Positions 35,274 through 38,611 of a stretch of 42,109 nt of DNA are shown here, piece after piece (within the stretch, counting starts at the first letter, position 1; every line of letters starts with the position of its first letter). This DNA comes from an uncultured Cryomorphaceae bacterium (GTDB taxonomy: Bacteria > Bacteroidota > Bacteroidia > Flavobacteriales_D > Parvicellaceae). The DNA lies in assembly GCA_947311505.1 (NCBI GenBank), contig CAMZLL010000003.1, forward strand, positions 1 to 42,109. The letters run 5' to 3'. The notes below the pieces were generated by a model that was not told the origin of the DNA, searched no databases, and was given only the letters and a program-made list of their open reading frames with translations. A program made the translations under genes and the position numbers.

Positions 35274-35513
35274 TTATTTTTTTACTTTGCATTGATGTAC
35301 TTTAATGATTTTTACGGGACAAACCTCCTTACATTGATTGGCTTTATCTTCATATTCATCATGCACCCTAACAGTGGCAAAACCTCGCTTATCCTCTCCA
35401 TTGACCAATATGCTTTTTCCATCTTTAGTTGACATACGAAACATATCTGGAGCTATTTCAAAACAATAGTTGCATCCGATACATTTATTTCTCTGTAACG
35501 TTACCGCTATCAT
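35274..35513 (-). CDS. 4Fe-4S ferredoxin
   Basis: CIGCNYCFEIAPDMF ... CKEVCPVKII. Confidence 0.9.
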   Translation of the reverse strand: MIAVTLQRNKCIGCNYCFEIAPDMFRMSTKDGKSILVNGEDKRGFATVRVHDEYEDKANQCKEVCPVKIIKVHQCKVKK

Positions 35514-36748
35514 ACATCAGGATTTGGAATCATTTTATAAAGCTTATCGGTAGTGCGGATTCTGTCGCATTTAAAAGTCAACTGATCTCCTTTTACTGCT
35601 TCTTCTGCAGGTTGGCCATTGACATAAATTTCATCAAGCTCCATTTCTATCACTCCAGTTGTAGGACCAGTAATCAATATTTTATCTCCTTTTTTTATTT
35701 TTTGAGCCTCAACTAAAAACTCTGCTATCTGCGGTTTTGGATAATAATGAGCTCCTTTGGCGATGTAAACTTTCTTCTGAGTAGCTTTAGACCCACTACC
35801 GTCATGCCATTCTCCCATTTTCTGACCAAGGTAATATCCACTCCAAAAACCTCTATTGTAAACAGATTCTAGGCGTTCCATCCACCCCTTTACTTTCTCT
35901 TGTGAATAGGTTCCATTTTGCAATGCATCAATAGCTTCACGATATGTTTCAATAGTTGTTTTAACATATTCGGGAGCCCTTCCTCTACCTTCTATTTTCA
36001 AGACTTTAACTCCAGAATCCGCTACTTGATCAAGAAAATAAATGGTACATAAATCTTTGGGAGACATGATATATTGGTTGTCTATCTCTAATTCGTTACC
36101 CGATTCATTATCTATAACAGTGTAGGTTCTTCTACAGTTTTGCACACATGCACCTCTATTGGCAGATGAGTTATTGGAGTGCAATGACAGATAACACTTA
36201 CCACTTACTGCCATACACAACGCTCCATGACCAAAAATTTCTATCTCAATGAGATTTCCCGAAGGACCTCTTACGTCTTCTTTTGAGATTCCATCTGTGA
36301 TTTTTCGTACTTGCGTCAAACTCAATTCTCTTGAAAGCACCATAACATCGGCAAATAAGGCATAAAACTTAACAGTTTCGAGATTGGTAACATTTAACTG
36401 TGTGGATATATGCACTTCTACACCAGCAGTACGAGCATTATTAAGTACCGCTTGATCTGCAGCAATAACAGCCGTAATGTTATGTTCTTTAACTGCTGAA
36501 ATAAGTGTTTTTACAATAGATAAATCATGATCATATACAATGGTATTTAAAGTCAAGTAGGTTCGTACGTTATGACTGTTGCAATATTCTCCTATTTCTT
36601 TTAGGTCATCTACCGTAAAATTAGCTGTAGCACGAGCTCGCATATTCATCTGCTCAACGCCAAAATACACACTATCTGCTCCAGCCATCACAGCTGCTCT
36701 CATCGACTCCCAGTTTCCACAGGGTGCCATTAATTCTATTTTTTGCAT
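35510..36748 (-). CDS. U32 family peptidase-like protein (TrhP/YegQ-like)
   Basis: KIELMAPCGNWESMRAAVMAGADSVYFGVEQMNMRARA; FGHGALCMAVSGKCYLS; ANRGACVQNCRR; start taken at MQKIELMAPC. Confidence 0.92.
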   Translation of the reverse strand: MQKIELMAPCGNWESMRAAVMAGADSVYFGVEQMNMRARATANFTVDDLKEIGEYCNSHNVRTYLTLNTIVYDHDLSIVKTLISAVKEHNITAVIAADQAVLNNARTAGVEVHISTQLNVTNLETVKFYALFADVMVLSRELSLTQVRKITDGISKEDVRGPSGNLIEIEIFGHGALCMAVSGKCYLSLHSNNSSANRGACVQNCRRTYTVIDNESGNELEIDNQYIMSPKDLCTIYFLDQVADSGVKVLKIEGRGRAPEYVKTTIETYREAIDALQNGTYSQEKVKGWMERLESVYNRGFWSGYYLGQKMGEWHDGSGSKATQKKVYIAKGAHYYPKPQIAEFLVEAQKIKKGDKILITGPTTGVIEMELDEIYVNGQPAEEAVKGDQLTFKCDRIRTTDKLYKMIPNPDV

Positions 36749-37028
36749 TCGTTTTCTTTTTTTTAAAAGGGTATGCAAAGCTACAATTAAACTACAACTC
36801 TACAAACAACTATTTTTCATCTCTAATTTAAATCTATTCGTCATTGTTTTTATTGTATTCGCAATATATAAATACGCTTTCTCAATAAATAAGCTACTTT
36901 TGAATTAAGACAACAACACTACAACAACTACAATTACCGTTTTTTTCTTTGGAAAGGAACGGTTTTTTTTGTGCTTCACATTTTTTTGCACATTCAAAAA
37001 ACACCAATAGGAATAGCGTTAATAGTTA

Positions 37029-37117
37029 GGGCGTGTCCCATCCGGGTCGGGCTATCCGCTATATCTTCCAAAGCTTAAAAAACAGCTTTGGAAGGATGCC
37101 GCTTCTATCCCTCACGC
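37029..37117 (+). repeat. Structured repeat unit A (GGGCGTG...CTCACGC)
   Basis: Shares most positions with the reverse complement of 37210-37288; contains an 11-bp hairpin 37065-37075/37084-37094. Confidence 0.85.
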
Positions 37118-37209
37118 AAATAACAAGAAAATTTATATCACATGAACTTCAAGAAAAAAACAATAAAAGTAGTATCATTCGCAGCACTCCAAGTCGCTCA
37201 CGACAACCT

Positions 37210-37288
37210 GCGTGAAGGATAGGAGCGGCATCCTCCAATTTTTTCTATTGGAGATATAGCGGATAGCCTGACCCATCGGGGCACGCCC
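37210..37288 (-). repeat. Structured repeat unit B, inverted relative to unit A
   Basis: Reverse complement GCGTG...GGCTATCCGCTATATCT-hairpin-GGATGCCGCTCCTATCCTTCACGC; hairpin 37233-37239/37247-37253. Confidence 0.85.
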
Positions 37289-37384
37289 AAAAGAAGAAAC
37301 TCAAAACGGATATCGCAAAAATGGGAGATAAAATATTTGCTCAAAACATCATTAAATTTATTAGGTTTGGGTATATTTGCATTT

Positions 37385-38611
37385 ATGGCAAAACAAGATG
37401 TAAGATGTTCTTTCTGTGGAAGACAAAAAAAAGAAGTAGAAGTATTAATCGCTGGAATCACAGGACACATCTGTGATAGCTGCATCAGTCAGGCGGGAAA
37501 TATTGTGGAAGAAGAGTTTGGTCAAGCCAACAAATCAGAATTGGAACACAACCTTACCTTACTTAAACCCAAAGAGATACTCGCTCGCTTGGATGAGTTT
37601 GTAATCGGTCAGGAGGATGCAAAAAAGGTGCTTTCTGTAGCGGTTTACAATCATTATAAAAGATTACTTCAAGAAGAAGATGCAGAAGAAATTGAAATTG
37701 AAAAGTCAAATGTAATCATCGTTGGAGAGACTGGAACGGGTAAAACCTTACTTGCAAAAACGATTGCAAAAATGCTCAACATACCATTTACCATAGCAGA
37801 TGCTACTGTACTGACTGAAGCTGGATATGTAGGTGAAGATGTAGAGAGTATTCTTTCTAGGTTATTGCAAGCTGCGGACTATGATGTGGCTGCTGCCGAA
37901 CGAGGAATAGTATTTATAGACGAGATAGATAAAGTAGCTCGAAAGAGTGATAATCCTTCTATAACTAGAGATGTTTCTGGAGAGGGGGTACAGCAAGCAA
38001 TGTTAAAACTACTTGAAGGATCTACCGTAGGTGTACCACCTCAGGGAGGAAGAAAACACCCAGATCAAAAAATGGTACAGATAGATACTAAGAACATTTT
38101 ATTTATATGTGGAGGTGCTTTTGATGGTATCAAGCAAATCATTGAGCGAAGAATAAAAACACAATCTATAGGTTTTGGATCTAGCGATGGAATGGAAGAT
38201 GTAAAAGAAAATACACTTTCGTATGTAAACCAATTGGACATCAAAAAATACGGATTGATTCCAGAGTTAATCGGACGTTTCCCAGTGCTTACCTATTTGA
38301 ATCCACTGGACAAACCAACGCTTATCAGAATTCTTAAAGAGCCCAAAAACGCTTTGGTAAAACAATATGAAAAGTTATTTGCTATTGATGGCATAGCTTT
38401 AGAAATAACTGATGAAGTTATTGATTTTATTGTAGATAAAGCGATGGAATTGAAATTAGGTGCTAGAGGTTTGCGTTCTATATGTGAAGCTATCCTTACT
38501 GACGCAATGTTTGAAGGTCCTACTATGAATGTGACTAAATTAACAATAGATTTGACATACGCAAAAGAAAAATTTAATGAGTCTAAAATTAGTAAATTAA
38601 AGGTAGCCTAA
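37385..38611 (+). CDS. clpX: ATP-dependent Clp protease ATP-binding subunit ClpX
   Basis: [17 protein letters not shown] zinc-binding domain; [51 protein letters not shown]; start at ATG 37385. Confidence 0.98.

Follow-up and report, generated by a model that had tools for sequence, protein, structure and literature searches.

Two inverted Flavo-1 elements upstream of clpX belong to a multi-copy intergenic repeat with a strand-specific fold

Identification of the inverted pair

The divergent spacer between clpX (37385–38611, plus strand; assigned from the ORF list and clpX relatives) and an open reading frame on the minus strand (35510–36778, ORF list), which we take from its sequence to be a U32-type peptidase gene, contains two inverted units separated by 92 bp. 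Both units are members of the Flavo-1 family (Rfam RF01705) in an extended form and are arranged as an inverted pair. All positions refer to the window, i.e. the whole stretch of 42,109 nucleotides from an uncultured Cryomorphaceae bacterium that was analysed. A cmscan search against Rfam 15 assigns unit 1 (37029–37117) to RF01705 with 61.2 bits (E = 4.3e-11) and unit 2 (37210–37288) with 44.3 bits (E = 2e-6). Both scores lie above the gathering threshold of 42 bits and both matches cover model positions 1–76; the Rfam match of unit 1 spans 37041–37122. An independent covariance model (R1), for which Flavobacterium succinicans copies alone were the input, has just two hits in the whole window, namely these units (E = 6.8e-14 and 8e-10, respectively). 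Given the Rfam E-values, the matches to the independent model and at least 69 Flavo-1 matches in the host draft genome, the units are beyond chance.

For ease of description, the strand modelled by Rfam is termed F and the opposite strand, on which the first-pass annotation was written, is termed R. F corresponds to the minus strand for unit 1 and to the plus strand for unit 2.

The closing helix of unit 1 is formed by GCGTG (37031–37035) and CACGC (37113–37117), and that of unit 2 by GCGTG (37210–37214) and CACGC (37282–37286). A small hairpin, hp1, follows the first arm in unit 1 (CCC-ATCC-GGG, 37037–37046); in other copies it extends to ~60 nt and remains paired. The hypervariable tip hairpin of unit 1 (37065–37094) pairs CTTCCAAAGCT (37065–37075) with AGCTTTGGAAG (37084–37094), whereas the tip of unit 2 (37233–37253) pairs CTCCAAT (37233–37239) with ATTGGAG (37247–37253). 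The blocks shared by the two units, the closing stem, the CCC/GGG hairpin and tips that differ yet stay paired had all been described in the first-pass annotation, and each of them is present at the positions given there. A further compensated difference, in R orientation, changes CGGG...CCC of unit 1 to CAGG...CCT in unit 2. No conserved feature was seen in the 92-bp spacer between the units (37118–37209).

Architecture and variants of the element

On the R strand the element has the layout (A)TTT GGGCGTN - hp1 - (T)CGGG CTATCC RY TRTATC - tip - GGATGCC RY NCTATC CC T N'ACGC AAA. Its length is ~75–165 bp, with 79 and 89 nt for the window copies. The core consists of short helices separated by conserved, purine-rich internal loops. 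Neither the closing helix (GCGTN/N'ACGC) nor hp1 (3 bp to ~60 nt) is among the pairs modelled by Rfam. Complementary closing arms are found in 44 of 46 host copies and 82 of 88 copies from a sister genus (16 and 27 with shuffled arms); for copies of named species the figure is 71 of 100 (30 with shuffled arms).

Several variants were observed. In a second variant of the centre, CACTACTCACTC-tip-GGAGTTCAAACACGCCGTT takes the place of the usual sequence while the ends are the same (loci L099, 10560–11080 and 17020–17720; L337; L155/L338). In the relatives G032 and G033, Flavo-1 lies within a composite repeat of ~290 bp (L107, L114, L118, L121, L127 and L131), and many copies of this composite carry a terminal second palindrome with ATCCCTAACGC, which is Flavo-1's own 3' end. 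Three host copies (L008, L034 and L036) have an insert within the tip, AGTACTTCG...CTCAGCAACC, which resembles another common flavobacterial repeat.

Covariation of the paired positions

Fixed pairs were evaluated against 2000 shuffles in 146 distinct copies, or in 74 for the closing helix. Every fixed pair is Watson-Crick in at least 90% of these copies. Nine of the 12 pairs beat all shuffles and the remaining three hardly vary. The two P5 pairs occur as GC (76) or AT (69) and as CG (112) or TA (31), and the closing arms of the 74 copies include GCGTG/CACGC, GCGTT/AACGC and GCGTA/TACGC, among others.

In an alignment of 24 F. succinicans copies (A2), 99.2% of the cells are paired compared with 74.4 ± 1.3% in shuffles, a control that ignores the kinship of the copies. 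The covariation score is 0.720 versus 0.220 when shuffled and at most 0.156 in slid registers, the latter control favouring the structure as it came from the same alignment. Double changes are present in 16 of 20 pairs. The covariation thus very strongly supports a selected nucleic-acid structure, as had been suggested from the two window units.

Strand specificity of the fold

Tip arms were aligned in a wobble-blind manner, i.e. only Watson-Crick pairs were scored and all mismatches were treated as equal, and transitional mismatches were then tallied. Among 197 distinct tips there are 41 G.U (or G.T) and 2 A.C mismatches on F, corresponding to 41 A.C and 2 G.T on R. The asymmetry is retained when counted by sequence cluster (22 versus 2) and in tips of copies found without structure scoring (30 versus 2). 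Hairpin hp1 points in the same direction (76 versus 6), with many copies sharing one fixed mismatch. Symmetric counts would be expected from a double-stranded palindrome, from a cruciform or from neutral correction of a palindrome; folding therefore concerns a single strand, and the selected fold is specific to the Rfam strand, F. Both RNA and single-stranded DNA fit the folded F strand. The short hp1 loops carry a GNA-like triplet on F in 16 of 24 cases, which fits single-stranded DNA or a UNCG-type RNA loop on the other strand.

Copy number and distribution

Besides the at least 69 matches, the host draft genome (2.70 Mb, 74.6% complete) contains 57 places with the 16-nt core at no more than one mismatch, and none with the reversed pattern. 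Of 40 genomes in the GTDB family, 11 carry Flavo-1, with 1 to at least 89 matches. Three congeners have 0, 0 and 2 copies; genomes of one neighbouring genus have between 1 and at least 89, and the relatives G032 and G033 have at least 89 each. In the order, 74 of 250 genomes are positive. The recurrence in flavobacterial genomes mentioned in the first-pass annotation is real, with further copies in the host as well as in relatives. At least 124 copies are present in F. succinicans DD5b and at least 150 in an Aquimarina. Altogether the copy number varies from 0 to at least 150 across relatives from five Bacteroidota families; the named hosts belong to Flavobacteriaceae, Weeksellaceae, Sphingobacteriaceae, Cyclobacteriaceae and Chitinophagaceae. 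Only 6 of 148 copies are located inside open reading frames.

A strict pattern matched a single contig of the viral collection, and carriage by phages was rejected on this basis. Nine host contigs (C52, C61, C79, C88, C161, C163, C165, C181 and C194) start or end at a Flavo-1 copy or within ~100 bp of one, which suggests that the repeats break the host assembly.

Gain, loss and exchange at orthologous sites

The region upstream of clpX lacks Flavo-1 in the congeners G027 and G028. The distance from a conserved small terminator-like block to clpX is ~80 nt in these two genomes and ~400 nt in the window. One Flavo-1 site of the relative G029 is empty in G036. Five other sites are occupied in both of these genomes, with flanks that are just ~75–90% identical, and the shared sites differ by paired changes in P4, P5, the tip or hp1. 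Several sites are also occupied in both G032 and G033. At one of them, with flanks ~95% identical, hp1 and the centre have been swapped for a different paired version, which includes the second central variant, and the ends are unchanged. Either selection or conversion by another copy can give rise to double changes at orthologous sites.

For comparison with a MITE, the ends GCGTG/CACGC of the element pair and the left flank ATTT is conserved (92–94% T at two positions). No direct (target) duplication was seen in the flanks of the copies and no insertion with exact boundaries against an empty site was found. Since no exact-boundary insertion with a target duplication was caught, mobility is deduced from copy number and from presence and absence at sites.

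A 22-nt block upstream of clpX, ACAACAACACTACAACAACTAC, is identical in three congeners (window 36910–36970; L160, 1354; L163, minus strand, 1377). After it come a hairpin, whose sequence differs between them, and a T-run; some also have a TAnnTTTG-like box upstream of the block. Judged by these motifs, the block is a candidate for a small terminated transcript; no Rfam family matched it. The host clpX is divergent from the U32-type peptidase gene (window 35510–37385), and a clpP-like gene is located directly upstream of clpX in relatives (L160, L163 and L187).

Alternative explanations

Flavo-1 may act as RNA, either as a UTR element or as a small RNA, with F transcribed from neighbouring or cryptic promoters and the purine-rich internal loops read by a protein or ligand. 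RF01705 is filed as an sRNA in Rfam, an RNA fold would give the wobble asymmetry, internal loops such as GGA/GGA on F look RNA-like and orthologous sites are occupied with compensatory changes. In the transcriptome of F. psychrophilum, several 5' transcribed regions overlap Flavo-1 matches; the matches there are, however, sense or antisense without preference and many lie outside transcribed regions (PMC9723704). Gene context in our data likewise opposes an RNA role. Relative to the flanking genes, F is sense to both in 41 cases and antisense to both in 39, divergent in 22 and convergent in 17, and the corresponding classes in F. succinicans (8/9/6/4) approximate its intergenic background. There is no promoter excess upstream of F, as TAnnTTTG (the only box type considered) occurs in 11 of 142 flanks versus 10.7 expected from shuffling; a promoter-driven sRNA gene was rejected because the flanks do not fit. 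These neutral results for orientation and flanks agree with the F. psychrophilum transcriptome, where the sense of Flavo-1 could not be assigned (PMC9723704). Inspection of flank profiles and sequences revealed no U-run 3' of the element on either strand; on R, AAA comes after CACGC, and the opposite strand terminates with CCCAAAT. Together with the swings in copy number, these observations make a role as RNA possible but rather doubtful, and little speaks for a stand-alone sRNA gene. As to the first-pass proposal of a non-coding RNA, the units belong to the Rfam family Flavo-1, but promoter excess, U-run and a preferred gene orientation are missing. An intrinsic terminator was rejected as well, the hairpin having no U-run. 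That the copies are bidirectional intrinsic terminators is highly improbable: they are stable hairpins between genes, but the U-run is missing on both strands and copies between divergent genes, including the window pair, occur at about the expected frequency.

The alternatives at the level of DNA concern a mover and a chromosomal role. REP sequences are palindromes of 20–40 nt with a GTAG or CGTC foot (PMC3733652), and a REP/BIME element moved by a RAYT (Y1 HUH transposase) would account for a dispersed, palindrome-like intergenic repeat, an inverted pair and a strand-specific fold. This explanation is very unlikely and the RAYT/REP model is largely refuted. No Y1_Tnp (PF01797) turned up in the host draft (74.6% complete), G032 or G033, which carry at least 69, 89 and 89 copies, respectively. 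A Y1 transposase is present in some other Flavo-1 hosts, but no Flavo-1 copy was found within the loci of Y1 genes and no Y1 gene near the sampled copies; the window copies have no GTAG or CGTC foot. The likeness to REP/BIME noted in the first-pass annotation accordingly persists for the dispersed intergenic distribution and the inverted pair, and the RAYT link fails. A reverse transcriptase (RVT_1) was also rejected as mover, as none was found in the copy-rich genomes G000 (the host draft), G033 and G036; reverse transcriptases do not track Flavo-1 copy number. A mover in cis was rejected too, as the neighbours are scattered, mostly housekeeping-type genes with no recurrent family. A host chromosomal role, in which a replication, repair or nucleoid protein binds F folded as single-stranded DNA, is unlikely, though less so than movement by a RAYT. 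Strand specificity that is not tied to transcription and retention at orthologous sites would suit it, as would a weak tendency of successive F. succinicans copies to alternate in strand (contigs C15, C44, C51 and C33 of G274, tens of kb). This alternation fades as copies are added: 43 different versus 16 same for the best 67 copies (p = 0.0006), 47 versus 26 with 81 copies (p = 0.019) and 8 versus 5, not significant, in complete stretches. Furthermore, congeners live with 0 to 2 copies, and GC skew as a measure of replication-strand bias shows no clear tie (58 versus 42, not significant). The complete Lacinutrix chromosome has 7 matches, too few for a replication-strand test.

Proposed nature of Flavo-1

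Most likely, by a little more than an even chance, Flavo-1 is a dispersed, non-autonomous intergenic structured repeat of the ERIC/BOX/REP kind that depends on a trans-acting mover, with the fold of F as its working form. Machinery acting in trans would spread the element. Copies would then persist at their sites while internal modules are exchanged among them by gene conversion or replacement, and the single-stranded fold of the Rfam strand alone would be the working form. This proposal draws on the following findings. The units belong to the Flavo-1 family, whose copy number is high and varies erratically; copies lie between genes and favour neither orientation; their pairs covary strongly, and wobble is tolerated in a strand-specific manner; some orthologous sites are empty, modules were replaced at one occupied site, and no linked Y1 transposase was found. 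Copying would be transposition-like, the folded strand may serve as substrate, and local retention may reflect competence or conversion instead of a host function at each site. The five sites shared by G029 and G036 with paired changes would also fit per-site host function, and the host genome taken by itself has some excess of F-sense copies (17 versus 7), which speaks somewhat against the proposal. A wider formulation is more tentative by far: Flavo-1 might be a phylum-wide selfish or domesticated element, with the strand-specific fold in single-stranded DNA as substrate and non-Y1 machinery that spreads the element and shuffles its modules. The interpretation given in the first-pass annotation is, as a whole, partly supported.

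If Flavo-1 is a dispersed repeat, sRNA annotations and counts in Bacteroidota genomes mislead; a review lists it among the most abundant sRNA families (PMC9029176). The repeat may also help to explain the fragmentation of draft genomes, in which contigs end in copies. It is puzzling that the fold is maintained on one strand although the copies are placed without regard to the direction of transcription and have no clear tie to GC skew.

Comparison with known systems

The Flavo-1 RNA motif was described as a candidate RNA without known function (Weinberg et al. 2010, PMC2864571). The window units share with the Rfam model its core helix, internal loops and strand over all 76 positions. They differ in that the flanks of the model are unpaired, whereas the window units are completed by a closing helix of 5 bp and by a side hairpin. 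The second central variant in relatives, the scattered distribution as a repeat, the strand-specific fold and the lack of an orientation preference are further differences.

Like REP/BIME sequences, Flavo-1 is a high-copy intergenic imperfect palindrome that sometimes occurs in inverted pairs (PMC2817692, PMC3733652). In contrast to these, it is longer (~75–165 bp), has several helices and no GTAG or CGTC foot, and has no linked or obligatory Y1 transposase.

ERIC of enterobacteria and BOX of pneumococcus are intergenic structured repeats of ~100 bp with many copies, and we know of no mover for either. Flavo-1 is equally intergenic, structured and present in many copies; no autonomous partner was found for it, which is absence of evidence only. 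It differs from both in phylum and sequence, and the strand-specific wobble signal and the exchange of whole modules are observations on Flavo-1, the only one of the three analysed here.
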